The notes under the pieces are model-generated. The model did no database searches. It was not told the origin of the DNA and worked only from the letters and a program-made list of their open reading frames with translations. 64,000 bases of DNA from Actinomyces johnsonii (GTDB lineage Bacteria > Actinomycetota > Actinomycetes > Actinomycetales > Actinomycetaceae): the NCBI RefSeq assembly GCF_006546835.1, contig NZ_VICB01000004.1:403132-467131 (forward strand), written 5' to 3'. Each line of letters starts with the position of its first letter. Position 1 is the first letter of the stretch. Shown here one piece after another: positions 2 to 44,663 of the stretch. Made by a program: the position numbers and the translations under genes.

Positions 2-304
2 CGGCTCACCCCGGGGCTGGCCCAGTCCACTCTTGCAGCACGCTCCGTCCTTATCGACGTCGCCCAGCACCGTGAGGTCATCACCTACGGAGAGCTCAGC
101 GAGGCGATCGGACGGAGCGTGCTGCCGCGTCATATGGGTCCCCTCCTCAGTATGATCGATCACGACTGCGCCGCCCGGGGCGAGCCGGGCCTGGCTGCCC
201 TGGTGGTCTCGGCGGCCACCGGTGAGGTCGGCACCCGCGATGAGAGCTGGGCGCCGCCCCAAAGGCGCGCCTGCTGGATGCAGTGGGGCAGGGGCGTCCG
301 CTGA
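2..304 (+). CDS. C-terminal part of an unidentified conserved protein (5' truncated)
   Basis: An open frame enters from the left edge and stops at 302-304, leaving 100 residues. The visible part contains an ITYGELSEAIG segment followed by a MGPLLSMIDHDC stretch and a GLAALVV strand. This YGEL...LGxLL...C...LPALVV layout recalls small actinobacterial proteins with a winged-helix fold like the DNA-binding half of alkyltransferases, but the assignment is from pattern memory only. Nothing upstream is visible, so function, operon and full length cannot be judged. The downstream SAM riboswitch separates it from metF. Confidence 0.55.
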   Translation, partial: RLTPGLAQSTLAARSVLIDVAQHREVITYGELSEAIGRSVLPRHMGPLLSMIDHDCAARGEPGLAALVVSAATGEVGTRDESWAPPQRRACWMQWGRGVR

Positions 305-430
305 CCCGGCCTGCCCACGGCGCAGCGCCACGGGGCGGTGCCGGTGGGGATGGGACGGCTCGCGGACCGGGCAGGTCGATCTCACTATTCGGGACGCCGG
401 ATGGGGGGAAGGATGCTCGTGGTTTGATAC

Positions 431-517
431 GCTCGACCATCCAGAGCGGCCGAGAGACCTGGTTCGATGACGCCGCAGCAACCCGGTGCGCGGGTGCTTC
501 AGCCAGGATCGATGGAG
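431..517 (+). promoter_or_regulatory. SAM-I (S-box) riboswitch
   Basis: Matches the S-box consensus in order: CCAGAG, a GCGGC arm that pairs with GCCGC, GAGAGACCTGG, TTCGATGA, GCAGCAACC, then GGTGCTTCAGCCAGG. The core lies between about 441 and 507; P1 would be formed by CCATC near 438 and GATGG at 511-515. The 3' side runs into the metF Shine-Dalgarno (GGAG, 514-517), so SAM binding could act on translation by sequestering the ribosome-binding site. No U-tract terminator lies between the aptamer and the gene. It controls metF-metE, as expected for methionine biosynthesis. Confidence 0.85.
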
Positions 518-522
518 ACGAC

Positions 523-1707
523 GTGCTAGACAACGAGCCCACGGAGCCCACTGCAGCAATCGAAGGCCGCAACGATGATCCGGGCGACGCCGAACGGGCG
601 ACGAGCCGCTCGCTGCCCACCGTCAGTCTGGAGCTCTTCCCCCCTCGTGCGGGCAAGGCCGCCTCAGCCACCTGGGGACGCATCGACAGACTCCTGGCCA
701 CCGGTCCCGACTTCGTGTCGGTGACCTACCGGCCGGCCTTCGTCACCGACCCGGTGCCTGGAAGCGGCGAGAAGGGGCGCTGGCAGCAGTGCGATGCGCC
801 TCGGGTGCGCGCGGTCCAGGAGGAATCCAATCCATCCGAGGGCGTCCTCGCCCATGTGCTCGGCTCCAGCGCCGTCCCCCTCATGGCGCACCTGACCTGT
901 ATCGGCTACCGCAAGCGGGAGGCCGTCGACATCATCACTCGCTTCCTGCGCATGGGAGTGCGGCGCTTCCTGGCGCTGCGGGGCGACCCCCCTACCGGCA
1001 CCCGGGCCGACGACGTCGCCGGGGAACTGCGCCACGCCGACGCCCTCGTCCGGGTCATCCGGGAGGTCGAGGCCGACTACTTCGGCGACGGCAGGCGCCA
1101 TGTCACCATAGCCGTAGCCGCATACCCGGCCACCAACGACCACATCGAGGCCATCGAAGTGCTCGCCTCCAAGCAGGCCGCCGGGGCCGACCTGGCGATC
1201 ACCCAGGTGTTCTACGATCCGGCGGACTACGTGGCCCTGACCAATGCCGCCTCCTATGCGGGCGTGAACATCCCGATCCTCCCCGGCGTCATCCCCCTGA
1301 CCGACCTGGGACGGCTCACCCGCCTCGAGGCGCTCACCGGGGTCAAGGTGCCCGACGCCCTGCGCTCCTCATTGGGGTCCGCCAGCGGCGCCACCCTCGT
1401 GGAACGCGGCATCGGTGCGACACTCGACCTGGCCACGGCGCTACTGAGGGCCGGGGCGCCCGGACTGCACCTGTACACCTTCAACCGGACCCGCCCCGCT
1501 CTCGACGTCATCAGCCATCTGCGGTTGGGCGGCATCCTGGCCGGGGCCGCCCCCGACCGGGAGGTGCGCGACGCCGTCGACCGCGGCTACCTCCAGGCCA
1601 CCCCCGGCCGTGGCCCCTCCTTCCTGCGCTGCGGTTCCCCGGGCGCAGCAGTCTCTTCCCGTCACCCCGTCCAGCCCCACACCACCATCACCAAGGAGAA
1701 TGCATGA
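523..1707 (+). CDS. metF: Methylenetetrahydrofolate reductase MetF
   Basis: Reduces 5,10-methylene-THF to 5-methyl-THF, the methyl donor used by MetE encoded next. 394 residues from the chosen GTG. Family landmarks are VSLELFPPR near the N-terminus, LTCIGYRK and a RFLALRGDPP segment (FAD/folate barrel), DLAITQVFYD, and LHLYTFNR near the C-terminus. The frame is open back to 283, but that would run through the riboswitch; GTG at 523 has GGAG five bases upstream and lies directly after the aptamer, so it is preferred. The N-terminal 30 residues are a non-conserved acidic extension. The stop overlaps the metE start by 4 bp (ATGA), indicating translational coupling. Confidence 0.93.
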   Translation: MLDNEPTEPTAAIEGRNDDPGDAERATSRSLPTVSLELFPPRAGKAASATWGRIDRLLATGPDFVSVTYRPAFVTDPVPGSGEKGRWQQCDAPRVRAVQEESNPSEGVLAHVLGSSAVPLMAHLTCIGYRKREAVDIITRFLRMGVRRFLALRGDPPTGTRADDVAGELRHADALVRVIREVEADYFGDGRRHVTIAVAAYPATNDHIEAIEVLASKQAAGADLAITQVFYDPADYVALTNAASYAGVNIPILPGVIPLTDLGRLTRLEALTGVKVPDALRSSLGSASGATLVERGIGATLDLATALLRAGAPGLHLYTFNRTRPALDVISHLRLGGILAGAAPDREVRDAVDRGYLQATPGRGPSFLRCGSPGAAVSSRHPVQPHTTITKENA

Positions 1708-4094
1708 GCGCCAACCCCGAGTCGGCCGCCCCCGCCTCGCCGGCGGAGATTGCCGTGACCGAGTCGCAGGTCCCCTCGGCACCCCTGCCGGGGGCCACCA
1801 TCCTGGGCTACCCACGTATCGGTAGGGACCGTGAACTCAAACGCGCTGTGGAGTCCTTCTGGAAGGGAAACCTGAACGCCGACGAGCTGCGCCACGCAGC
1901 TTCCGAGCTGCGCGGGGCGACCCGTTCTCGCCTGGCGGAGCTGGGCCTGACCCAACCCGCCTCGGTGCCCGCGGACTTCACCCTCTACGACCAGGTCCTC
2001 CAGGTGACCGCCACCCTGGGCGCGGTCCCCGCCCGCTTCCGCGACCTGCTGGACGCCGATGGAGCACTCGACGTCGAGGGCTACTTCACGCTGGCTCGTG
2101 GTGAAGGAGCCCGCCCCGCCCTGGAGATGACCAAATGGCTCGACTCCAACTACCACTACCTGGTTCCCGAGATCGACGCCTCCACCCCCATCGGCTACGT
2201 CGACACCGCCATCGCCGACCAGGTCCGCGAGGCCAAGGAAGCCGGGGTAGAGGTGCGCCCCGTCGTCGTGGGACCGATCAGCTACCTGCTCATGGCCAAG
2301 CCCTCCGACGAGGCGGCCGAGGGCTTCCACCCCCTGGATCGGCTCGGCGACGTCCTGCACGCCTACGGCCACCTGCTCATGGACCTGCAGAAGGCCGGCG
2401 CCACCTGGGTCCAGCTCGACGAACCCGCCCTGGTCTCCGACTCCTGGAACATCGATCGCGAGCGCATCCTCCAGGCCGTGCGCGACGCCTACACCTGGCT
2501 GGGCGCCATCGTGGAGCGCCCCCAGATCCTGGTGGCCGGAACCTACGGCTCCCTGGGCGACGCCCTGCCCATGCTCGGGCGGGCCCCGATCGAGGCTGTG
2601 GGCCTCGACCTCGTGGCGGGCTCGCTGCCCGAAGCCGGCGACCTGGCCTCCCTGGAGAGCAAGGCCGTCGTCGCCGGCGTCGTCTCGGGACGCAACATCT
2701 GGCGCACCGACCTGGACGCGGCGCTGAGCACGCTCGAGCAGCTGCGCGAGCGCCTGCCCGAGGGTACCCCCATCACCGTGGCCACCTCCACGTCCCTCCA
2801 GCACGTGCCCCACGACGTCGAGCGCGAGACCGCCATCGACCCGCAGATCCGTTCCTGGCTCGCCTTCGCCGACCAGAAGGTCGGCGAGGTCATCGCCCTG
2901 GCCAGGGGACTGGCCGAGGGGCGCGAGGCCATCGCCGCCGAGCTCGCCCAGGACGCCGACCTGCGCAACCAGCGCGCAGCCCACCCGGGCGTGCACCGCG
3001 ACGAGGTGCGCGCCGCCGTCGACGCCGTCACCGAGGGCGACCGCACCCGTGCCCCCTACGCCGAGCGCAAGGCCGCCCAGGACGAGCGCCTCGGCCTGCC
3101 GGAGCTGCCCACCACCACCATCGGCTCCTTCCCGCAGACCGCCGAGATCCGCAAAGCCCGGGCCGCCCGGCGCAAGGGCGAGATCGGCGAGGCCGCCTAC
3201 GACGAGGCCATGCGCGCGGAGATCGCCAGCGTCGTGGCCCTCCAGGAGCGCCTCGGCCTGGACGTCCTAGTGCACGGCGAGGCCGAGCGCAACGACATGG
3301 TCCAGTACTTCGCCGAACTGCTCGACGGCTTCGTGACCACCGAGCACGGCTGGGTCCAGTCCTACGGCTCGCGCTGCACCCGCCCCTCCATCCTGTGGGG
3401 AGACGTCGTGCGCCCCGAACCGATGACGGTGGCCTGGTCGGCCTACGCCCAGTCCTTGACCGACAAGCCCCTCAAGGGGATGCTCACAGGCCCGGTGACG
3501 ATCATGGCCTGGTCCTTCGTGCGCGACGACATCCCGCGCGCCCAGGTCGCCGACCAGCTGGGCCTGGCCCTACGCCAGGAGGTCGCAGACCTCGAGGCCG
3601 CGGGCATCGGCGTCATCCAGGTCGACGAGCCCGCCATCCGCGAGACCCTGCCGTTGCGCCGCACCGACCGCCCCGCCTATCTGGAATGGTCCGTCGGCTC
3701 CTTCCGCCTAGCCACCGGGGGCGCCGCACCCGCCACCCAGGTCCACACCCACCTGTGCTACTCCGAGTTCGACGTCGTCATCGACGCGGTCGACCACCTC
3801 GACGCCGACGTCACCTCCATCGAGGCCTCCCGCTCGCGCATGGACATCCTTCCCGCCGTGGCCGAGCACGGCTTCGAGCGTCAACTCGGCCCAGGTGTAT
3901 GGGACATCCACTCCCCGCGCGTTCCCAGCCAGGCCGAGTGCACCGAGCTGCTCCAGCGCGCCGTGGACGCCCTGGGCGCGGAGAAGGTGTGGGTCAATCC
4001 GGACTGCGGTCTCAAGACCCGCGCCTACGCCGAGACCGAGGCGAGCCTGGCCAGTCTCGTGGGGGCCGCCCGCGCCGTGCGCGCGACCCTGTGA
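1704..4094 (+). CDS. metE: Cobalamin-independent methionine synthase MetE
   Basis: Transfers the methyl group of 5-methyl-THF polyglutamate to homocysteine, in the cytoplasm. 796 residues, slightly longer than the usual ~755 because of a ~30-residue N-terminal tail before the ILGYPRIG motif. Two related barrels are visible: the N-terminal one with TWVQLDEPAL and the catalytic C-terminal one with TTTIGSFPQT, GVIQVDEPAIRE, VHTHLCYSEF (zinc ligands His and Cys) and VNPDCGLKTR (third ligand Cys). AAGGAG stands 5 bases before the ATG. Second gene of the riboswitch-controlled metFE operon, followed immediately by a terminator. Confidence 0.96.
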   Translation: MSANPESAAPASPAEIAVTESQVPSAPLPGATILGYPRIGRDRELKRAVESFWKGNLNADELRHAASELRGATRSRLAELGLTQPASVPADFTLYDQVLQVTATLGAVPARFRDLLDADGALDVEGYFTLARGEGARPALEMTKWLDSNYHYLVPEIDASTPIGYVDTAIADQVREAKEAGVEVRPVVVGPISYLLMAKPSDEAAEGFHPLDRLGDVLHAYGHLLMDLQKAGATWVQLDEPALVSDSWNIDRERILQAVRDAYTWLGAIVERPQILVAGTYGSLGDALPMLGRAPIEAVGLDLVAGSLPEAGDLASLESKAVVAGVVSGRNIWRTDLDAALSTLEQLRERLPEGTPITVATSTSLQHVPHDVERETAIDPQIRSWLAFADQKVGEVIALARGLAEGREAIAAELAQDADLRNQRAAHPGVHRDEVRAAVDAVTEGDRTRAPYAERKAAQDERLGLPELPTTTIGSFPQTAEIRKARAARRKGEIGEAAYDEAMRAEIASVVALQERLGLDVLVHGEAERNDMVQYFAELLDGFVTTEHGWVQSYGSRCTRPSILWGDVVRPEPMTVAWSAYAQSLTDKPLKGMLTGPVTIMAWSFVRDDIPRAQVADQLGLALRQEVADLEAAGIGVIQVDEPAIRETLPLRRTDRPAYLEWSVGSFRLATGGAAPATQVHTHLCYSEFDVVIDAVDHLDADVTSIEASRSRMDILPAVAEHGFERQLGPGVWDIHSPRVPSQAECTELLQRAVDALGAEKVWVNPDCGLKTRAYAETEASLASLVGAARAVRATL

Positions 4095-4121
4095 GCTTCT
4101 GAGACGCTTCGCGGTACCTCT

Positions 4122-4158
4122 AGGCGGCCTGGGAGAGGACATCTCTCCCAGGCCGCCT
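4122..4158 (+). terminator. Terminator after metE
   Basis: A perfect 16-bp inverted repeat (arms 4122-4137 and 4143-4158) around a 5-nt loop. No U-tract follows, as is common in actinobacteria. It lies 27 bp after the metE stop and just before the hisD promoter. Confidence 0.85.
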
Positions 4159-4171
4159 CGCGCGGGGCCGG

Positions 4172-4177
4172 TAGGCT
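4172..4177 (+). promoter_or_regulatory. -10 element of a leaderless hisD promoter
   Basis: TAGGCT followed by 7 nt and then the hisD ATG, with no Shine-Dalgarno. Transcription would start at or next to the A of the start codon. Confidence 0.6.
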
Positions 4178-4184
4178 TGTCGGC

Positions 4185-5525
4185 ATGCTCTCCCGTATCG
4201 ATCTGCGCAGCTCCCGACTCGGCCCCCGCGAGCTGGCACAGGCTCTTCCCCGGGCCGCCCTCAACGTGTCCGCCGCCCAGACCGCGGTGGCCCCTCTGAT
4301 CGAGGACGTCCGCTCCCAGGGCGCGGCCGCCCTGCGCGACGCCGCCGAGCGCTTCGACGGCGTACGCCCCGTCCACCTCCGCGTGCCCGCACAGGCCATC
4401 GCCCAGGCGCTCAACGACCTGGATCCGACGGTGCACGAGGCTCTGGAGGTGTCCATCGCCCACAACCGAGCCGGTCACGCCGCTCAGGTGCCCACCGAGC
4501 GCACCACCGAGGTGGTCCCCGGAGGCGCCATTACCCAGCGCTGGATCCCGGTCAAGCGCGTCGGCCTCTACGTTCCCGGGGGACTGGCCGTATACCCCTC
4601 CAGCGTGGTCATGAACGCGGTCGCGGCCCAGGTCGCCGGCGTCGAGCAGATCGCCGTGGCCAGCCCGCCCCAGGCGGAATTCGGCGGACTGCCCCACCCC
4701 ACGATCCTGGCGGCGTGCGCACTGCTGGGACTGACCGAGGTCTACGCCGTTGGCGGCGCCCAGGCGATCGCGATGTTCGCCTACGGCGCCGATGCCCAGA
4801 ACGACATCGACCGCGCCGACGCCGGGGGAGAGGCCCTGTGCCGGGGAGTCGATGTCATCACCGGTCCCGGCAACGTCTACGTGGCCGCCGCCAAGCGCGC
4901 CGTCATGGGGACGGTGGGAATCGATGCCGAGGCGGGCCCCACAGAGATCGCCGTCCTGGCCGACGCCGGTGCCAACCCCGAGTACGTGGCCGCCGACCTG
5001 CTCTCCCAGGCGGAGCACGATCCCAATGCCGGCAGTGTTCTCATCACCGACTCCCCGGAGCTGGCCGAGGCCGTCGACGCCGCGCTCGAGCGCAGGCTCA
5101 GTGCGACCCGGCACCGGGACCGGGCAGGCACCGCCCTGAACGGTCCACAGTCGGGCATCATCCTGGTGCGCGACCTCGAGCAGGGCGTGCAGGTCGCCGA
5201 CGCCTACGCCGCCGAGCACCTGGAAATCCACACCGCCGACGCCGCCGAGGTGGCCCGTCGCGTCCGTAACGCCGGGGCGATCTTCGTGGGCCCCTTCAGC
5301 CCGGTGCCCCTGGGCGACTACCTGGCGGGTTCCAACCACGTCCTGCCCACAGGCGGTACCGCCCGTTTCGCCGCCGGGCTGAGCGTCATGGCCTTCCTCA
5401 AACCGGTCCAGCTCATCGAGTACGACGCAGGCGCCCTGGAGGCCATGACACCCCCGCTGGAAGTACTGGCGACGTGCGAGGACCTGCCCGCTCACGGTGA
5501 GGCGGCTCGCGCCCGGATAGAGTGA
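4185..5525 (+). CDS. hisD: Histidinol dehydrogenase HisD
   Basis: Catalyses the last two steps of histidine synthesis, histidinol to histidine with 2 NAD+. 446 residues, normal length. Typical motifs are [33 protein letters not shown], the [12 protein letters not shown] loop, [10 protein letters not shown] with the following SQAEHDP (catalytic and zinc-binding Gln/His), EHLEIHT and [10 protein letters not shown]. The start sits 7 nt after a TAGGCT hexamer and lacks a ribosome-binding site, so the mRNA is probably leaderless. In many actinobacteria hisD is followed directly by hisC and hisB; here the next his gene is 12 kb away, beyond the polysaccharide locus. Confidence 0.96.
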
Positions 5526-5847
5526 GAAAGATGATCGACCGGGCCACCGAGATCGTTATGTGATCTTCTCCGTGCTCATCGAGGAGGGAGCGCCGCGACC
5601 GAGGCACTCCCTCCTCGAGTCTTCAACCGTTGCAATGACGCCGTTTGAGGGCGTTGTGAGCCTTCCTCCAATAGAGTGCCGGCCGGATAGTCGAATGACA
5701 CAGTGTTGCGAAGCGTTATTCTATTGTTATATTTGGTCTTGGCGCACGGTGTGCCGTGCCCGACGGGCTGAGTTCCCACACCCGTCACCCCCGGGCACGC
5801 CGCACCGAGGCGTTGGTATCGGCTGGCTTTAGCTCACTCTTCCGGTA
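5526..5847 (+). promoter_or_regulatory. Intergenic region with promoter of the polysaccharide operon
   Basis: After the hisD terminator the DNA becomes AT-rich at about 5690-5740, in sharp contrast with its surroundings. It contains TTGCGA (5706-5711), a 16-bp spacer and TATATT (5728-5733), the most canonical housekeeping promoter in this part of the window. No other gene was found in the gap. The transcript would carry a leader of about 100 nt before the first small gene. Confidence 0.5.
5579..5618 (+). terminator. Terminator after hisD
   Basis: Perfect 11-bp inverted repeat (TCGAGGAGGGA and its complement) around an 18-nt loop, 54 bp after the hisD stop. Confidence 0.7.
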
Positions 5848-6144
5848 ATGCCGGTCGGTATCGGCCCTACCCCTTGGATCCAGATGGATGGCCTCATGCA
5901 CTACTCCCCATTCGCCGCCGGAACCGGACTGTTCGTTGTGTGGTACGTCGCTCCGGCAGGCTCCCTTCCCGCACTCGTTGCCCGTTTCCTCATTGACTGC
6001 GCCGGACTGGTATTCGTCGCCATCCTGGCATTCTTCCTGCTGACCAACCTCTACGGCGCCGTACGCGGCCTGCTCCCGCGCTCGCGCAGCGCCATGGGAC
6101 GTCACGTCCAACGGCGCGGCGGCACGATGAGTCTGCGGGCGTGA
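5848..6144 (+). CDS. Small membrane protein of the polysaccharide locus
   Basis: Up to 98 residues with two predicted membrane segments (around FAAGTGLFVVWYV and LIDCAGLVFVAILAFFLL) and a short basic C-terminal tail. The start is uncertain: ATG at 5848 or in-frame ATGs at 5884 and 5896, none with a good ribosome-binding site. Its TGA overlaps the start of the synthase gene (TGATG), so the two are translationally coupled. No family was recognised. By position it may be an accessory subunit of the GT2 synthase, as small membrane partners accompany several synthase-dependent polysaccharide systems; that role is inference. Confidence 0.6.
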   Translation: MPVGIGPTPWIQMDGLMHYSPFAAGTGLFVVWYVAPAGSLPALVARFLIDCAGLVFVAILAFFLLTNLYGAVRGLLPRSRSAMGRHVQRRGGTMSLRA

Positions 6145-7700
6145 TGAGTACGCAGATTTCGTTGATGCTCATGGATCTCGGCCCCTCGAGCCCCCTGGGA
6201 ATCCTCGACCGCGTCGGTTGGTGGGGCGCACTGGGAATGATCGCCGTCGCCCTCGTCTACACGCTGTTCATGCTGCTGGCCTCCCGCGGGGCCCCGAAGC
6301 ACGGTGGGGCCTCGCACCCGGATGCCCCGCTTCTCATTGTCATCCTCATGCCCTGCCTCAACGAGGCGGAGGTGATCGGAGCCAGTGTCAGGCGCCTTAC
6401 CTCGATTCCGGACCCCGGTCTGCGCATCATGGTCATCGACGACGGCTCCGACGACGACACCGCCCAGGTGGCCGCCCAAGCCGGGGATGCACGGGTCGAG
6501 GTAGTGCGACGCCGTCCCCCGCACGCCCGTCTGGGGAAGGGGGAGGCGCTCAACGACGCGCTGTCGATCGTGCGCTCCCGCTGCACGTCGGTGTCCTCCT
6601 CCAGGGTAGTCGTGGGGGTCATGGACGCCGACGGCCGACTCGACCCGCACGCCATCGGCGAGGTCCGCAAGGCCTTCGCCCCCCAGGAGGTCGGTGCCGT
6701 CCAGATGGGCGTGCGCATCAACAACCGTTTCGGCTCACTGCTGGCCCGTATGCAGGACATGGAGTTTGTCATCTTCACCGAGGTCTTCCAGCGGGGACGG
6801 CGCCGAGTCCACAGCGTCGGCATGGGCGGCAACGCCCAGTTCGTCCGCCTCAGCGCGCTCGACGCCCTGGGCCCCAGGCCCTGGACCCGGTCCCTGACTG
6901 AAGACTTCGATCTGGGGATCCGGCTCAACGCCACCAGCTGGACCAACGAGTTCTGGCCCTCGGCCTCCGTCCACCAGCAGGGCGTGACCAACATGCGTCG
7001 CCTCATGCGCCAACGCACCCGCTGGTTCCAGGGAAACCTCCAAGCGCTGCACCTCCTGCGCTCCGTCGCCCGCGAGCAGAGGGGACTGGGACGCGCCGAC
7101 ACGCTCTGGCAGATTCTCACGCCCTACCTTCTTCTGACCGGGTCCCTGCTGACCCTGTCGTTCCTCATCACGATGGTGACCGCCGCTGTGGCTGCGGTCC
7201 TGAGGTGGGAGCAGTCGTGGGCCTGGCTCGTGGGCGCCTACGTCATCGCCTTCGGGCCGGCGCTCATCTATGCCTGGATCTACTGGCGCATCGAGCGCAG
7301 AGAGGGCCTGAACCTGATTAAGGCGGTGGGCTACTCCCATCTGTTCGTCCTCTACGGACTCCTTCCCAGCCTCTACGGCTGGCGAGCCGTGGCCAGGGAG
7401 ATGACCGGACGAACCGGTTGGGCCAAGACGGCTCGCGAGGCCGAGCCGGCCCAGGGTGCCGATCCCTCCCGGACAGCTGCGGCCGTCGCCGCTCCGGGAG
7501 GGCCGCCGCCCGGAGGATCGCCGGGGCCGGGCGACCGACCCGCTCCACCCGGGGCTCGGCAGTCGCCAGCGCCAGCCGCATTGGGGACTCCTGATCAGGG
7601 TCGATCAACCCTGGCCGGCGCCCCCATGACCGGGGCGACGATCGTGGGGCGCAGCTCCCACCACACAGCGGGAAACCTGACCAATGAGGAGATGAGATGA
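6144..7700 (+). CDS. Processive family 2 glycosyltransferase (polysaccharide synthase)
   Basis: 518 residues. An N-terminal membrane segment (about 10-45) precedes a GT-A domain with MPCLNEA, VIDDGSDDD, VMDADG (metal-binding DxD), TEDFDLG (catalytic base) and QRTRW, the QxxRW signature of processive GT2 enzymes such as cellulose, hyaluronan and poly-GlcNAc synthases. Three or four further membrane segments follow (about 330-420), then a Pro/Ala/Gly-rich tail of about 90 residues without a PilZ domain. It should polymerise a nucleotide-sugar at the membrane and translocate the chain. The neighbouring UDP-GlcNAc 2-epimerase suggests ManNAc or GlcNAc as substrate. GTG at 6141 is an alternative start; the stop overlaps the next gene by 4 bp. 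Confidence 0.85.
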   Translation: MSTQISLMLMDLGPSSPLGILDRVGWWGALGMIAVALVYTLFMLLASRGAPKHGGASHPDAPLLIVILMPCLNEAEVIGASVRRLTSIPDPGLRIMVIDDGSDDDTAQVAAQAGDARVEVVRRRPPHARLGKGEALNDALSIVRSRCTSVSSSRVVVGVMDADGRLDPHAIGEVRKAFAPQEVGAVQMGVRINNRFGSLLARMQDMEFVIFTEVFQRGRRRVHSVGMGGNAQFVRLSALDALGPRPWTRSLTEDFDLGIRLNATSWTNEFWPSASVHQQGVTNMRRLMRQRTRWFQGNLQALHLLRSVAREQRGLGRADTLWQILTPYLLLTGSLLTLSFLITMVTAAVAAVLRWEQSWAWLVGAYVIAFGPALIYAWIYWRIERREGLNLIKAVGYSHLFVLYGLLPSLYGWRAVAREMTGRTGWAKTAREAEPAQGADPSRTAAAVAAPGGPPPGGSPGPGDRPAPPGARQSPAPAALGTPDQGRSTLAGAPMTGATIVGRSSHHTAGNLTNEEMR

Positions 7701-32927: not shown

Positions 32928-33578
32928 TCAGTGATCGCCTGCCGGATCGTGGGAGGGTGATGGTATCGAGATGTGGCTCGGGGTCTCTTCGGCGCCCTGC
33001 TGCACCTGAGAGACCAGACTCCGCAGTGTCTGGGCCGACATATTCGTGATGGTCCGCTGGCTGATCTCCGGATGATCCAGCCACGCCAGGCACAGGGCGA
33101 TCATCGTGTCGATCCACACCTTGGCGGCGAACATAGCGTGCTCGTCGGGGGTCGCGACTCCCAGGAGCATGAGGACGAGGCGCTCATAGCGCTCGAAGCT
33201 GGTGTTCAGCGCGGCCGCGATCTCTGGGTCCTGGTCGAGGCCTCCGGTGTGCAGGGCCCGGAAGCTGTCCGGCCTGGCTCTCACATAGCCCGCGAAAGTG
33301 GAGATCGCCGCCTCCAGTGTCGGCTCGATCTGCTGCTCCACCAGGTCGTGAAGGTGAAGGATCTCATGCTCGACGATCGCTCGGGCGAAGGCCGCCTTGG
33401 AGGGGAAGTAGTGGTAGAAAAGCGTGCGCGAAACGCCGGCCCGCTTGATGATCTCATTGACGTGAGTGCGGTCGAGGGTGCCCTCCGCGAACAGTTCGAC
33501 CCCGACTCTCACCAGTTCCTCCCGGCGCTGCTCGGGCTGGAGTCGGCGGCGCGGATCGGTCGTATTCGCGGGGCTCAT
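32928..33578 (-). CDS. TetR-family transcriptional regulator
   Basis: 216 residues. The N-terminal HTH spans about 20-65: ELFAEGTLDRTHVNEIIKRAGVSRTLFYHYFPSKAAF contains the TetR recognition helix pattern (the motif is split here only by convention). The C-terminal ligand domain is all-alpha with VWIDTMIALCLAWLD. Start ATG at 33578. Lies between the glycosyltransferase and the amino-acid importer, divergent from the latter; its target is probably local but not shown. Confidence 0.88.
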   Translation of the reverse strand: MSPANTTDPRRRLQPEQRREELVRVGVELFAEGTLDRTHVNEIIKRAGVSRTLFYHYFPSKAAFARAIVEHEILHLHDLVEQQIEPTLEAAISTFAGYVRARPDSFRALHTGGLDQDPEIAAALNTSFERYERLVLMLLGVATPDEHAMFAAKVWIDTMIALCLAWLDHPEISQRTITNMSAQTLRSLVSQVQQGAEETPSHISIPSPSHDPAGDH

Positions 33579-33675
33579 GCGGATGAGACTACGGCCGGGT
33601 GGTCGACTCGGCCGGTTAGGCGCTCTGCGTGGCGTGTGACCATCATCGCAGCAAGAGACGCGTTTTGAGATTCGG

Positions 33676-33706
33676 TTGACGCTCCGGTCGCGGGCGGTGT
33701 TACCCT
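33676..33706 (+). promoter_or_regulatory. Promoter of the amino-acid importer operon
   Basis: TTGACG (33676-33681), a 19-bp spacer and TACCCT (33701-33706). The resulting leader of about 205 nt contains a hairpin (GGGCCGGT with ACCGGTCCC, about 33779-33807) and the Cys-rich leader peptide. Confidence 0.5.
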
Positions 33707-33841
33707 TCCTGACGAAAGGTCGGAACTGCGGCTACCCGTTATCCATGGGCGCTTACGGCGAACAGCCATGGGCAATCTGGGCCGGTGAGCGGTTTGAACC
33801 GGTCCCAAAGGTCTGAAGCCATACGAGCAAGGAGGAATGCG

Positions 33842-33877
33842 GTGCGCATGTGGATGTGTTGCTGTCACTGTCGCTGA
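33842..33877 (+). CDS. Poly-cysteine leader peptide (attenuator)
   Basis: GTG at 33842 follows an excellent AAGGAGG with 6 nt spacing and encodes 11 residues, MRMWMCCCHCR, before TGA. Four of the last six residues are Cys, three consecutive. The bases of the Cys codons lie in an arm that can pair: AUGUGGAU (33848-33855) with AUCCACGU (33896-33903), directly before the importer's GTG. A ribosome slowed at Cys codons would open that stem and expose the downstream start. Poly-Cys short ORFs acting as cysteine attenuators are described in mycobacteria. An overlapping ATG frame at 33837 is also Cys-containing but sits too close to the Shine-Dalgarno. Confidence 0.65.
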   Translation: MRMWMCCCHCR

Positions 33878-33918
33878 GGCAGATTCCGCTCCTATATCCA
33901 CGTTGAGACGAGGTACTC

Positions 33919-34773
33919 GTGACCACATCCGCATCCTCTCCCGATCGAACAGCTGCAGACCGATCTGACGACGTCGACGACGACGTCAAAGGCGCCCAGC
34001 GCGAGCCCCGGGACGCTGGCGCGGACCGGAAACCCGACGACGCCCTGGTGCGCATCAGCCATGTCACCAAGTACTACGGCCATTTCAAAGCGCTCGATGA
34101 CGTTTCACTCGACATCCACCGTGGTGAGGTCGTGGCCGTCATCGGAGCCTCGGGTTCCGGTAAATCGACGCTGTGCCGCACCGTCAACCGCCTCGAGCCG
34201 ATCCAGAAGGGCGAGATCGAGATCGACGGCGTCCCATTGCCTCAGGAGGGCAGGGCGCTGGCCCAACTGCGCGCCGAGGTGGGAATGGTCTTCCAGTCCT
34301 TCAACCTCTTCCCGCACCGAACGGTGCTGGACAATATCACCCTGGCGCCCATCAAGGTGCGCGGCACCCCCCGCCGGCAGGCCGAGACGCGGGCCCATGA
34401 GCTGCTGGCTCGCGTCGGGCTAGCGGATCAGGCCTCCAAGCGCCCCGCGCAGCTCTCGGGAGGCCAGCAGCAGCGGGTCGCCATCGCCCGCGCCCTGGCC
34501 ATGGATCCCAAGGTCATGCTCTTCGACGAACCCACCAGCGCTCTGGACCCGGAGATGATCAACGAGGTCCTGGACGTCATCAAGGATCTGGCTTCCTCCG
34601 GCATGACCATGCTTGTCGTCACTCACGAGATGGGATTCGCCCGCTCCGCCGCCGACCGCGTCGTCTTCATGGATGGCGGCCAGATCGTGGAATCAGGCAG
34701 CCCCGCCGAGTTCTTCTCCTCTCCGCGCACCGAACGCGCTCGCGACTTCCTGTCCAAGGTGCTCAGCCACTGA
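33919..34773 (+). CDS. Polar amino-acid ABC importer, ATP-binding protein
   Basis: 284 residues. After a ~40 residue charged N-terminal tail: GASGSGKST (Walker A), [13 protein letters not shown] (Q-loop), [15 protein letters not shown] (signature), [12 protein letters not shown] (Walker B) and VVTHEM (H-loop). The closest pattern is the GlnQ/GluA type serving glutamate, glutamine, cystine and related substrates. GTG start. First of four genes making a complete importer (ATPase, binding protein, two permeases). The Cys-rich leader peptide upstream suggests that the substrate is cystine/cysteine or that the operon responds to cysteine. Confidence 0.93.
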
Positions 34774-34863: not shown

Positions 34864-35922
34864 ATGACCACCTTCTCCCGTCGCAGCCTTCTGGCCACCA
34901 CCGGCGCCATTTCCCTTGCCGGCGTGCTGGCGGCCTGCGCCGACACGGGCACCGACGGCAAGGCCGACGCCGAGTACAACAAGGCCATCAACTCCGGGCC
35001 GGTGGCCGCCGCCGACGTCGTAGCCGCCTCCAGCTGGGCCGCCGCCGTCAAGAAGGCGGGCAAACTCGTCACCGGCGGGACCAAGACCTCCGAGGTGTTC
35101 TCCTGGGAGGACTCCAAGACGAAGAAAATCTCCGGCTTCGATGCGGCCATCGCCCAGGTCCTGGCCCGCTACATCATCGGCGGTGACGACGCCCGCTCCC
35201 TGCTCGAGATCAAGCAGGTCACCTCCGACACGCGTGAGACCGTCCTGGTCAACGGTACAGTCAACGCCGTCGTGGCCACGTACACGATCACCCCGGAACG
35301 AGCCGAGAAGATCGACTTCGCCGGCCCGTACTACGCCTCCAGTCAGGCCATCCTGGTCAAGGCCGACAACAAGGACATCACGGGTGTCGACAGCCTGGCC
35401 GGAGACGTCGCGGTCCAGTCCAACTCCTCATCGGCCTCCGCCCTGAAGAAGTACGCCCCGAACGCGACGGCCAAGCCCTTCGACACCCAGGCCAAGTGCG
35501 TCGCCGCCGTCGAGAGCGGGCAGGTCAAGGCCTACGTCGTGGACCAGTCCCTGCTCAAGAGCGAGGTCCTGTCCAATGACAAGGTCAAGATCGTCGGCAA
35601 CACCTTCGCCGAGGACCCCTACGGCATCGGACTCCCCAAGGACTCCGGTGCCCAGGCCTTCGTCAACACTTTCCTGCAAACGATCGAGTCGGACGGCACC
35701 TGGAAGACCATCTGGGAGGCGACGATCGGCAAATCACTCGGTGGCGATGCGCCCCAGCCGCCGGTCATCGGCTCGGTTCCCGGATCGTCGACCGCCGGTG
35801 CCGAGGGTGCGGTTGGTGCAGAGCAGACTCCCGTTCCCGAGGACACTCCCGCTCCTGAGGACGGCTCCGAGCCGGCGCCTGAGCAGGGCGGTGGCGGTGA
35901 CGAGGCCCCGCAGGAGTCCTGA
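34864..35922 (+). CDS. Family 3 solute-binding lipoprotein of the importer
   Basis: 352 residues. Twin-arginine start (FSRRSLLATTG) and lipobox LAAC at about residues 18-21 mark an exported lipoprotein. Residues 55-300 form the amino-acid binding domain with FSWEDSKTKKISGFDAAIAQ, VNAVVATYTITPERAEKIDFAGPYY and AVESGQVKAYVVD. The last ~50 residues are a Pro/Glu/Gly/Asp-rich acidic tail not usual for this family, probably disordered. AAAGGAA precedes the ATG. It captures the substrate outside the cell for the permeases encoded next. Confidence 0.9.
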   Translation: MTTFSRRSLLATTGAISLAGVLAACADTGTDGKADAEYNKAINSGPVAAADVVAASSWAAAVKKAGKLVTGGTKTSEVFSWEDSKTKKISGFDAAIAQVLARYIIGGDDARSLLEIKQVTSDTRETVLVNGTVNAVVATYTITPERAEKIDFAGPYYASSQAILVKADNKDITGVDSLAGDVAVQSNSSSASALKKYAPNATAKPFDTQAKCVAAVESGQVKAYVVDQSLLKSEVLSNDKVKIVGNTFAEDPYGIGLPKDSGAQAFVNTFLQTIESDGTWKTIWEATIGKSLGGDAPQPPVIGSVPGSSTAGAEGAVGAEQTPVPEDTPAPEDGSEPAPEQGGGGDEAPQES

Positions 35923-36052: not shown

Positions 36053-36712
36053 GTGAGTGCCATCACCGACAATCTCGCTGATATTGGCTCCGGCCTGCTC
36101 ATCACGCTGGTGATCTCCGTACTGTCCTACGCGGGCGGACTAATCCTGGGATCGCTCATGGCCATCCTCCGGGTCGGTCCCATCCCTCCTCTGCGGGCAC
36201 TGGGCGCGGCGTGGGTGACGGTGGCCTGCAACATCCCCAACCTGTGCCTCATGGTGCTGGTCGGCCTGGCGCTTCCCAACGTCGGCATCAGGATTCCACT
36301 GTTCTGGTCGGTGATCGTCGCCCTGGTCTTCTCCTCGTCCGGATTCGTGTGCGAGACGGTGCGCAGCGGAATCAACTCGGTGCCGAAGGGACAGATCGAG
36401 GCCGCGCGCGCATTGGGAATGCCCTTCTGGCTCATCATCCGCGGTATCGTCCTGCCTCAGGCCCTGGCCCGCACGATCCAGCCACTGGTCAATGTCTTCA
36501 TCGCCTGCCTCATCGGCTCCTCGCTGGCTGCAGCGGTCGGCGTCGTTGAGCTGACTGCCGTTACGCAGAGAATCAACCAGGAGCGAGCGGCGGGAGTCAT
36601 CACCTTCCTCACCTCGGGGCTCACCTACCTGGCCATCGCCTTCGCCGCCACGAAGTTCGGCGGGCGTCTTGAGAGACGCCTCGAGTTCATGGGGAAGGAG
36701 GAACGCGCATGA
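36053..36712 (+). CDS. Amino-acid ABC importer permease 1 (GluC-like)
   Basis: 219 residues, about five membrane segments. The inner-membrane EAA loop is present as GQIEAARALGMPFWLIIRGIVLPQALARTI, split here for description: the EAARALG part contacts the ATPase. AAGGAGG lies 7 nt before GTG 36053. Overlaps the second permease by 4 bp. Confidence 0.9.
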   Translation: MSAITDNLADIGSGLLITLVISVLSYAGGLILGSLMAILRVGPIPPLRALGAAWVTVACNIPNLCLMVLVGLALPNVGIRIPLFWSVIVALVFSSSGFVCETVRSGINSVPKGQIEAARALGMPFWLIIRGIVLPQALARTIQPLVNVFIACLIGSSLAAAVGVVELTAVTQRINQERAAGVITFLTSGLTYLAIAFAATKFGGRLERRLEFMGKEERA

Positions 36713-37584
36713 GCTCCGACATCATGCCCATGACGGATCAGCGTCCCGCCAAGCAGCGGGGCAAGGGCTCAGGGGCGACGGACGCGGCGCTGCTCTTCGA
36801 TGAGCCGGGGCCGCGGGGGCGCGTCATGATCGCCATCGGATCAGTTATTGCGGTTCTTGGGATCGTGGCGCTGCTGGGCGCGGTCCTCTACCGACTGGAC
36901 CTTGCGGGCCAGCTCGACTATCCCGAGTGGCGCTACTTCCTGGGGCGCTCGGTGGTCAGTCAGCTTCTGGAAGCCGCCGGCAACACCCTGTCCCTGGGGG
37001 CCGTCGCAGCCGTCCTCACCTTTCCTCTGGGAATCGTCCTGGGCTGGCTCCGCCTGTTGGACAACCGGCCCGTGAGGTGGTTGGTCGGCTTATGGATCGA
37101 TGCCATGCGAGCGGTGCCGATGCTGCTGCTCGTCTACTTCTTCCTGCTAGTGGTTCCGCGTTTCGTGGATGTCTCGGACTTCTGGAAGCTGGCGCTGCCC
37201 ATCATCATGTGCACCTCGGCGACGACGGCGGAGGTCTTCCGCTCAGGCGTCCGGGCCCTGGACCGAGGTCAGACGGAGGCTGCACTGGCGCTGGGAATGA
37301 GCAGATCTCTCACGATGCGTCTCATCCTGGCGCCGCAGGCACTGCGTCTTATGCTCCCGACCCTCATCACACAGATGGTGACCATCATCAAGGGCACCAC
37401 GCTCGCGTACGTGCTCGCCTATCCCGAGCTCATGTACCGCGGTTCCACGATGATCGGTCAGGCGAAGATAGACGCCCACCTGTCCGTCTTCTTCCAGACC
37501 TACGTCATCATCGCCGTCGCCTACGTCATCGTGAACTGGGCTCTGGGAGCGTTGGCGAGGCGCATCGGAGCCCGCACCCGGTGA
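36709..37584 (+). CDS. Amino-acid ABC importer permease 2 (GluD-like)
   Basis: 291 residues. A ~35 residue cytoplasmic N-tail precedes about six membrane segments. The EAA motif reads TEAALALGMS followed by LILAPQALRLMLP. It pairs with the preceding permease to form the heterodimeric channel. Ends 25 bp before the stop of the convergent VOC gene. Confidence 0.9.
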   Translation: MSSDIMPMTDQRPAKQRGKGSGATDAALLFDEPGPRGRVMIAIGSVIAVLGIVALLGAVLYRLDLAGQLDYPEWRYFLGRSVVSQLLEAAGNTLSLGAVAAVLTFPLGIVLGWLRLLDNRPVRWLVGLWIDAMRAVPMLLLVYFFLLVVPRFVDVSDFWKLALPIIMCTSATTAEVFRSGVRALDRGQTEAALALGMSRSLTMRLILAPQALRLMLPTLITQMVTIIKGTTLAYVLAYPELMYRGSTMIGQAKIDAHLSVFFQTYVIIAVAYVIVNWALGALARRIGARTR

Positions 37585-43698: not shown

Positions 43699-44663
43699 CG
43701 GGACTCCTCGTAATGACGCAGGAAAAGGTCCTCCAGACTGGCCGGCTCACAGGTGACGTCCTGCACCCGATGCTCACCGGCCACACTCAGCACCGCCGGC
43801 ACCTGCTCGGCCGGCACCTGAAGGCTCAGGTGCCCGGAGTCCTCGACGACCTCGAGATCCATGGCTCTGAGCGCTTGCGCGATCGTGCCGAGTACATCAG
43901 GTACATCAGGTACATCGGGGGGCGCTCCCAGTTCGATGCGGGTGCGCGACAGGCGCCGCAGGGTCCCCAGGTCGCCGTGCTCGACGACGCGGCCGTTCTT
44001 GATGATCGTCACGGCGCTGCACAAGCGTTGGACCTCGGCCAGGATGTGGCTCGAGAGCAGGACCGTGCGCCCCTCTCCAGCCACCCGGGCGATCTCCTCG
44101 GTGAAGACTCTCTCCATGAGCGGGTCCAGGCCGCTGGTGGGCTCATCGAGCACGAGCAGGCGCGTCGGCGCGGCCAGGGCCGCCACGAGCGCCACCTTCT
44201 GACGGTTGCCCTTGGAGTAGGTGCGTACCCGTTTGCTGGGATCAAGATCAAATCGTTCGATGAGTTCGGCCTCCCGCTTGGTATCGCGCGATCCACGCAG
44301 TCCGGCCAGGGCGTCGAGCACCTGTCCGCCGGTCAGGGGCGGCCACAGCGCCACGTCACCGGGGACATAAGAGACCTGCCGGTTGATGACCGAGGCCTCC
44401 TGCCACGGATCGCGGCCCAGCACGCTTACGTTTCCGTCGTCGGGCCGGTAGAGCCCCAGCAGGGTGCGGATCGTTGTGGACTTGCCCGCCCCGTTGGGGC
44501 CGAGGAAGCCGTGGACGCTGCCTGCCTCCACCTCCAGGTCCAGGTGATCGAGCGCCCTGAAGCGTCCGAAGTGCTTGACCAGGCCCCGAACACGTACCGG
44601 CGGATGAGAACCGGCTTCGACATCGAGGGCCTTGACAGACGCAGATTCGGTAGTGGTTGTCAT
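43695..44663 (-). CDS. ABC exporter ATP-binding protein
   Basis: 322 residues: FLGPNGAGKSTTIR (Walker A), YSKGNRQKVALVAAL (signature region with variant SKGNRQK), LLVLDEPTSGLDP (Walker B) and LSSHIL (H-loop). The C-terminal 90 residues form the usual DrrA-like accessory region and contain a VPD repeat encoded by three tandem 9-nt units at 43892-43918. Energises the permease encoded next; 4-bp overlaps on both sides show one transcript with the MerR gene. Confidence 0.92.
   Translation of the reverse strand: MTTTTESASVKALDVEAGSHPPVRVRGLVKHFGRFRALDHLDLEVEAGSVHGFLGPNGAGKSTTIRTLLGLYRPDDGNVSVLGRDPWQEASVINRQVSYVPGDVALWPPLTGGQVLDALAGLRGSRDTKREAELIERFDLDPSKRVRTYSKGNRQKVALVAALAAPTRLLVLDEPTSGLDPLMERVFTEEIARVAGEGRTVLLSSHILAEVQRLCSAVTIIKNGRVVEHGDLGTLRRLSRTRIELGAPPDVPDVPDVLGTIAQALRAMDLEVVEDSGHLSLQVPAEQVPAVLSVAGEHRVQDVTCEPASLEDLFLRHYEESR
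43892..43918 (-). repeat. Three tandem 9-bp units inside the ATPase gene
   Basis: GTACATCAG twice and GTACATCGG once, encoding DVPDVPDVP-like repeats. In-frame slippage here would change length without breaking the protein. Confidence 0.8.

Follow-up and report, generated by a model that had tools for sequence, protein, structure and literature searches.

According to work of Canestrari et al. from 2020, the leaderless short open reading frames (ORFs) with runs of cysteine codons that are found in mycobacteria reportedly act as cysteine-responsive attenuators. Such ORFs with contiguous Cys codons are described, in the available sections of one study, to regulate downstream genes of M. smegmatis by cysteine-dependent attenuation (PMC9031893), and the available parts of PMC9031893, PMC9094748 and PMC13236596 describe or cite the mycobacterial poly-Cys leaders (Canestrari 2020). 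Already in 2005, a survey had predicted poly-Cys leaders for mycobacterial cys operons as well as for P. acnes and B. longum cbs; its available sections characterize the mycobacterial regions as being without conserved hairpins able to act as terminators and, with A. naeslundii among the genomes covered, report no Cys leader found in this species (PMC1262725). While the existence of poly-Cys leaders in mycobacteria and others is thus known, we found no paper in the open-licence literature that describes them in Actinomyces.

The locus described here is located on a stretch of 64,000 nt from Actinomyces johnsonii (GCF_006546835.1, contig NZ_VICB01000004.1), which we refer to as the window and whose positions are used as coordinates throughout. 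An initial annotation, made from the letters of this stretch, had proposed an 11-codon ORF with four Cys codons and its own Shine-Dalgarno (SD) sequence in front of an amino acid ABC importer. This proposal is confirmed by our reading of aaGGAGGaatgcg GTG CGC ATG TGG ATG TGT TGC TGT CAC TGT CGC TGA (33842-33877), which encodes the leader peptide VRMWMCCCHCR with Cys at codons 6, 7, 8 and 10 and is preceded by a GGAGG that ends 6 nt before the GTG at 33842. The leader stop is separated by a spacer of 41 nt from the GTG of the importer (33919). The region contains the following features.

33676 to 33681, forward strand: TTGACG, a -35-like motif read by eye, present in 7 of 8 aligned loci of the window's clade, the window included, with TTGACC in one.
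33701 to 33706, forward strand: TACCCT, a -10-like motif 19 nt after the -35-like motif; among the aligned loci of the clade, TACTCT in 6 of 8 and TAGTCT in one.
33831 to 33835, forward strand: GGAGG, core of the leader SD sequence.
33842 to 33877, forward strand: leader ORF VRMWMCCCHCR with GTG start and TGA stop, assigned from the sequence and its orthologs.
33848 to 33858, forward strand: 5' arm of helix P1 (codons 3-5 and the first two bases of codon 6), from folding and covariation.
33857 to 33865, forward strand: Cys codons 6-8 (TGT TGC TGT), invariant as Cys across the 26 type A leaders (defined below) found among 30 loci.
33868 to 33872, forward strand: 5' arm of helix P2 (last base of codon 9, Cys codon 10 and first base of codon 11), from folding and covariation.
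33869 to 33871, forward strand: Cys codon 10 (TGT), read in the sequence.
33878 to 33882, forward strand: 3' arm of P2, directly 3' of the stop codon, with the latter located in the loop of P2; from folding and covariation.
33893 to 33903, forward strand: 3' arm of P1, between the leader stop and the importer, from folding and covariation.
33908 to 33920, forward strand: importer ribosome-binding site (RBS), where a hairpin ACGAG-GUA-CUCGU, predicted in the minimum free energy fold, covers the SD sequence GAGG (33910-33913) and the start codon.

Alternative leader starts (ATG 33837 in another frame and upstream in-frame starts) were dropped as they are not kept in orthologs. A promoter scan with a spacing rule of 16-18 nt did not detect any promoter upstream of the leader, and the -10-like motif at 33701-33706 suggests a transcript start that would be located well upstream of the ORF, for which reason we regard this leader as not leaderless. 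Between 33560 and 34100, no Rfam family is matched at its gathering score, the single hit being at chance level (16.2 of 45 bits, E 3.3), and a search for intrinsic terminators with a T-run found none in 33580-34100. On the minus strand, divergent from the leader, a gene for a TetR-type regulator (32928-33578) could add transcriptional control.

The operon downstream of the leader contains four genes, which were assigned from domain matches.

33919 to 34773, forward strand: ATPase of a PAAT-type ABC importer (ABC_tran), first gene of the operon.
34864 to 35922, forward strand: solute-binding lipoprotein (SBP_bac_3).
36053 to 36712, forward strand: permease 1 (BPD_transp_1).
36709 to 37584, forward strand: permease 2 (BPD_transp_1).

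With SBP_bac_3, ABC_tran and BPD_transp_1 proteins encoded in one operon, the system is an amino acid ABC importer of the PAAT type, which shares gene content and domains with GluABCD, GlnHPQ and the cystine importer TcyJLN but does not reach any equivalog cut-off. The best solved relatives of the binding protein are of the Glu/Gln type (5eyf, 6h1u), and the NCBIfam cystine equivalogs (TcyN, FliY and cystine permease) are matched below their cut-offs by the ATPase (296.9 of 406 bits), the binding protein (62.7 of 312 bits) and the permease (106.3 of 300 bits). Homology by itself leaves the substrate vague, and cystine is in this respect a prediction.

To define the conservation of the leader, we used the binding protein as query against 59 genomes, comprising that of the window together with 36 from its genus and 22 further ones. 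A match was present in 54 of these, and the best 30 importer loci, all from the same genus and including that of the window, were fetched via this protein alone. An SD-led leader before the PAAT importer, termed type A, is found in 26 of these 30 loci. According to the initial annotation, its proposal would be refuted if the Cys codons were not kept in orthologous leaders. In the 26 leaders identified, codons 6, 7 and 8 are invariably Cys, a count that is not wholly independent of the search since a minimum of three Cys within no more than 16 codons was required for detection. All 26 leaders also share a GTG start, a Met at codon 5 and an SD core of the sequence GGAGG, GGGAG, AGGGG or GAGGG; none has a TANNNT hexamer 5-9 nt before its start. 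Codon 9 encodes Cys in 15 of the 26 and His, Arg or Ser in the remainder. The leader is 11 codons long in 25 cases and 9 codons in one, where two codons are missing in frame, and the later type A locus L096 contains a leader of 10 codons; these shifts in whole codons favour its reading as protein. The spacer to the importer spans 41-58 nt, with 24 of the 26 falling between 41 and 48 nt. Taken from the alignments, these features support selection acting on a leader with its Cys codons. Among the four importers without such a leader, L027, L029 and L030 have none, and L026 keeps an SD sequence and a two-Cys peptide. In latter locus, the region upstream of the ATPase holds a degenerate leader (MSALTRRCRGCRLHH) with a good SD sequence, probably a decayed copy.

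Outside the genus, we inspected importer homologues in 22 genomes, comprising 16 of 164 genomes from other genera of the family and 6 from other families, of which 10 contained a match at 1e-30 (13 loci). A poly-Cys leader is absent within the 500 nt scanned in all 10 out-of-genus loci that include the ATPase; among the three loci lacking it, a short ORF with three Cys is seen only in L149, on the strand opposite the match, and not in L150 or L151. An exact-pattern scan of a collection of 84,980 species, which covers only leaders ending in MCCC-x-C-Arg-stop and says nothing on poly-Cys leaders generally, retrieved 24 stretches, 21 of which are from Actinomyces. The other three were rejected, as they lack both an in-frame start further upstream and an SD sequence of the GGAG type and look like chance matches. 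This distribution bears on the explanation that the region would contain a conserved structured RNA or a chance ORF without any role in cysteine sensing. Although the conservation of the hairpin described below is what a structured RNA would display, we give this explanation hardly any credence, as the length of the leader is kept in whole codons (9, 10 or 11) despite sequence change, and a chance origin is at odds with the concentration of pattern matches in Actinomyces and with the rarity of such ORFs: the window contains a single SD-preceded ORF of at most 16 residues with at least four Cys, compared to none in 60 random 64-kb sequences generated by a first-order Markov model, and without the SD requirement the count is two in the window compared to 0.13 per random sequence.

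The initial annotation had further noted that the leader RNA can pair with the segment just before the importer's GTG. We recover this pairing in the minimum free energy fold of the window, where positions 33848-33858 (AUGUGGAUGUG) and 33893-33903 (UAUAUCCACGU) form helix P1. Folded alone, the hairpin of the window is only mildly better than chance (z -1.59, with 13 of 200 shuffles folding equally well), and its support thus comes from conservation. For this analysis, we used 28 sequences outside the window's clade, 21 of type A and 7 of type C, a second SD-led type introduced below. In this set, 95.3% of the P1 and P2 cells are paired, compared to 32-43% after sliding by 1-3 columns and 90.7% in shuffled alignments. 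The number of cells changed on both sides (20) and the covariation score (0.236) were each matched by none of 500 shuffles; the number of pairs with two-sided change (4) was reached by 98 and that of further pair types by 117 of 500 shuffles. Compensatory swaps include A-U to G-C in P1 in 12 sequences and C-G to G-C in P2 in 6. An unguided consensus fold recovered P2 and placed the inner half of P1 with a slip of two bases, and in the clade of the window P1 sits two columns over. Pairing of the leader arms is stronger with the spacer of the same locus than with those of other loci (means of -9.9 vs -8.1 kcal/mol, permutation p 1e-4), although such p-values are overstated because the loci are related. 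Four loci (L019, L022, L023 and L028) show a weak or broken P1, and in L006-L010 this helix is of reduced strength. The comparison demonstrates, at the level of predicted pairing, a covarying two-helix hairpin with its 5' arms inside the leader ORF.

A model built from the 28 sequences, with the window's clade left out, matches the window at 62.9 bits (E 1.5e-15). When searched against 213 genomes of the family, it matched 56 at E <= 0.1. Within the genus these are 43 of 49 genomes (42 at E <= 1e-6 and one at 0.1), a count that pools both SD-led types and the genomes that gave training rows. The 13 of 164 genomes from other genera were matched weakly (E 8e-4 to 0.1), and the four of them that were read contain no 11-codon Cys leader. 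A second weak match in the window (44298-44382, minus strand, 17 bits, E 0.0088) looks coding-like, has no Cys run and is probably due to chance.

The leader ORF with its SD sequence and Cys codons 6-8, its near-constant length of 11 codons, the short spacer and the covarying hairpin are all read from the sequence, and their best explanation is that a ribosome stalled at the Cys codons when Cys-tRNA is scarce would open the conserved hairpin and thereby raise expression of the importer. We consider it probable that the ORF encodes a cysteine-sensing leader peptide of this kind. How opening of the hairpin might act on the importer was investigated by modelling the ribosome as a block on the RNA of the 26 type A loci, either absent (free) or placed at the first Cys codon or at the stop. 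The segment upstream of the importer SD is unpaired to a fraction of 0.39 in the free RNA, 0.43 with a ribosome at the stop and 0.59 with a ribosome at the first Cys codon, compared to 0.48, 0.56 and 0.56 for shuffled leaders, and it opens on stalling in 21 of 26 loci, the exceptions being L007-L010 and L025. The unpaired fraction of the importer SD and start, by comparison, hardly changes (0.40 to 0.43, p 0.20), and we thus propose that control is exerted on the upstream segment as a standby site. The mean cost of opening the importer RBS amounts to 9.75 kcal/mol in the free RNA, 9.14 with the ribosome stalled at the first Cys codon and 10.17 with the ribosome at the stop (9.66, 9.30 and 9.68 kcal/mol, respectively, for shuffled leaders).

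These simulations bear on a simple sequestration in the style of mycobacteria, where the stalled ribosome would unmask the importer's SD sequence itself. Such a mechanism has in its favour that the mycobacterial system is the closest characterised one, and in minimum free energy folds of the window's clade the leader RBS can also pair with codons 2-10 of the importer. Still, we find it quite unlikely: stalling lowers the cost of opening the importer RBS in just 12 of 26 loci, the mean gain in its unpaired fraction is the small one reported above, and in the window the cost even worsens from 7.3 to 8.1. Constrained folding of the 26 loci thus lends no support to a sequestration of the SD by the leader. 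A consensus fold of the aligned spacers detected no conserved helix, neither as an alternative to the hairpin nor over the importer RBS. The layout of a cysteine-responsive attenuator, which the initial annotation had recognized, is supported with respect to the conserved Cys leader, a kind of leader that also precedes two further ABC importers; a freeing of the importer SD by stalling is not apparent from the folding.

A different role of the leader would be to govern the access of Rho to the C-rich 5' coding RNA of the importer, in which case the hairpin would only set the timing or the release of the ribosome. The absence of an intrinsic terminator in 33580-34100 would fit such Rho-based cysteine attenuation, and Rho was suggested for the mycobacterial cys leaders in 2005, as stated in the available part of PMC1262725. 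The C-over-G excess, which was measured for type A importers only, averages 0.165 in the first 90 nt of the importer (26 loci) compared to 0.059 deeper in the gene, with a background of -0.001 (sd 0.078) in 40 ORFs of the window with mechanically chosen starts. C-rich Pro/Ala/Thr stretches are, however, common in proteins such as the first gene product of the importer; 3 of the 40 ORFs attain the excess of 0.133 seen in the window's own importer; and stalling of the ribosome would leave the spacer exposed instead of covering it. We therefore view Rho as an unlikely, albeit not negligible, primary target of the leader. The 5' coding region itself (33919-34008) is C-rich, with a variable N-terminal extension, and could be a Rho site or just a linker.

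Cys-rich leaders are also found in front of two other importers of the genus. As a finder we used a gap-free Met-Cys-Cys-Cys pattern, which matches in 45 of 49 same-genus genomes, many of the matches being coding overlap; a reversed control pattern also matches many genomes, for which reason the pattern served to locate candidates only, and motifs in long frames (such as L062 and L069) were dropped as coding overlap. Leaders of type C (MTKRMCCCCCR and variants, 11 codons with 2-5 Cys) precede a permease gene in all 24 close orthologs, counted at 69-100% identity with distant matches (<=41%) left out and with a finder that asked for at least two Cys. Six of them (L201, L202, L204, L212, L213 and L214) lack three adjacent Cys, and in all 24 a TANNNT hexamer is missing at 5-9 nt upstream of the start. 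A close ortholog of this permease is absent from the genome of the window itself. In the most fully annotated operon, L083 from another Actinomyces (239-7085), an 11-codon Cys leader is followed by an Opp/Gsi-type importer and a glutathione S-transferase-like ORF. For the ATPase and binding protein of L083, the best models are GsiA and GsiB, whose cut-offs are not reached, and the permeases match Opp4C (in L066) and Opp2B best, followed by GsiD and GsiC at lower scores. The two-domain ATPase passes the cut-offs for NikD, NikE and a dipeptide subfamily, with a score that sums both domains. Since nickel and dipeptide cut-offs are passed and those of Gsi are not, glutathione is a guess among peptide, glutathione and nickel as candidate substrates.

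Leaders of type B, whose sequence is unrelated to types A and C, are Cys-rich ORFs of 31-39 codons upstream of the genes for an SsuA-like binding protein, a permease and an ATPase, with sulfonate models leading in case of the binding protein and the ATPase, all below cut-off. The SsuA-like protein was found in 28 of 49 genomes, and with a finder for ATG ORFs of 28-42 codons with two Cys in the last 14 (leaving out L190, a second fragment from one genome), the leader is present in 28 of 28 loci, with 31 codons in 5, 32 in 20 and 39 in 3; a scan limited to 34 codons recovers 25 of 28. In most loci it ends some 210-390 nt before the coding match. Each of the 28 ATG codons is preceded by a TANNNT hexamer, at a distance of 7 nt in 27 cases and 6 nt in one, and at gaps of 0-30 nt the sole other placements belong to two internal starts. 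Type B thus looks leaderless in its layout. It is present in the window's own genome (L061/L081, contig C13, minus strand), where an ORF of 32 codons is located about 310 nt before the importer operon. The contrast between SD-led and leaderless poly-Cys ORFs that the initial annotation had drawn with respect to mycobacteria thus holds for type A but is not clean, because the same genome also contains a leaderless-looking Cys-rich ORF. Jointly, the loci look like an importer set that is responsive to cysteine and started in two ways, SD-led and leaderless. For all three importers, substrates are called from best-model matches below cut-off, except for the Opp/Gsi-type ATPase, and the predicted cysteine link of the window's importer draws on its leader and on the two accompanying importers, for which sulfur compounds are among the nearest models. 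By eye, the first proteins of type B and C operons also look N-terminally extended. In some leaders, Cys is replaced by Arg (MTKRMRCRCCR in type C, MCRCCQAR; L201, L202, L204, L212, L214 and several type B loci), and cysteine sensing may be weakening or tuned there.

The recurrence of Cys-rich leaders before two other importers, one with an unrelated and distant leader, also speaks against a mere translational coupling, in which the leader would feed ribosomes to a weak importer start and its Cys codons would be incidental. The near-constant short spacer would suit this explanation, as would the short local hairpin predicted over the importer RBS in the minimum free energy folds of 14 of 26 loci, the window included. 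Yet Cys is invariant at codons 6-8 of all 26 leaders, in contrast to codon 9, which drifts to His, Arg or Ser, and we regard coupling as very unlikely.

Our preferred reading thus remains that of a leader peptide that senses cysteine by ribosome stalling. With cysteine in plenty, the ribosome would finish the leader and leave, allowing P1 and P2 to close directly upstream of the importer RBS. Upon cysteine shortage, a ribosome parked at the Cys codons would occupy both 5' arms of the hairpin, and the freed segment upstream of the importer SD might serve as a single-stranded standby site on which the next ribosome could land. As an added step, Rho could end transcription in the C-rich first codons of an untranslated importer. 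The same logic, if shared by the Opp/Gsi-type and SsuA-type operons, would cause cysteine shortage to raise the uptake of several candidate sulfur sources together. As a tentative extension, which we consider possible, Actinomyces might thus contain a ribosome-read sulfur-import regulon, in which SD-led leaders with a covarying hairpin and leaderless Cys-codon leaders set the output of polar amino acid (predicted cystine), Opp/Gsi-type (predicted glutathione or peptide) and SsuA-type (predicted sulfonate) importers from one shared signal, charged Cys-tRNA. The hairpin would in this case target a standby site and neither serve as terminator nor act on the SD. If true, ribosome-based cysteine sensing would extend from mycobacterial genes to nutrient uptake in a common oral genus, one genome would employ SD-led as well as leaderless ORFs for the same sensing logic, and a physiological role in sulfur scavenging could be proposed for three importers that homology leaves vague.

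In comparison to known systems, the Actinomyces leaders share with the mycobacterial poly-Cys short ORFs, as far as the available parts of the cited studies describe them, the run of Cys codons in a short upstream ORF, the presence of several operons per genome and, as proposed here, the action by attenuation. The SsuA-type leader also resembles the mycobacterial ORFs in its leaderless appearance. Conversely, the leader of the window has its own SD sequence and lacks a -10-like hexamer at 5-9 nt upstream of the start (present in 0 of 26), and the Actinomyces systems differ by their covarying hairpin and their importer targets. With the leaders predicted in 2005, they have in common that Cys runs are located near the stop codon and that a terminator is missing; the targets in the available part of that survey are cys and cbs genes rather than three importer operons, and a conserved hairpin is now supplied where none was reported there for mycobacterial leaders (PMC1262725). 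Compared to the classical attenuators of trp and ilv, a T-run terminator hairpin and a conserved competing helix were not found, whereas the placement of leader codons in the 5' arms of a hairpin that a stalled ribosome would open is shared. As far as the searched literature goes, new elements are the occurrence in this genus, importers as targets, an SD-led form that has a covarying hairpin, and both initiation modes within one genome.
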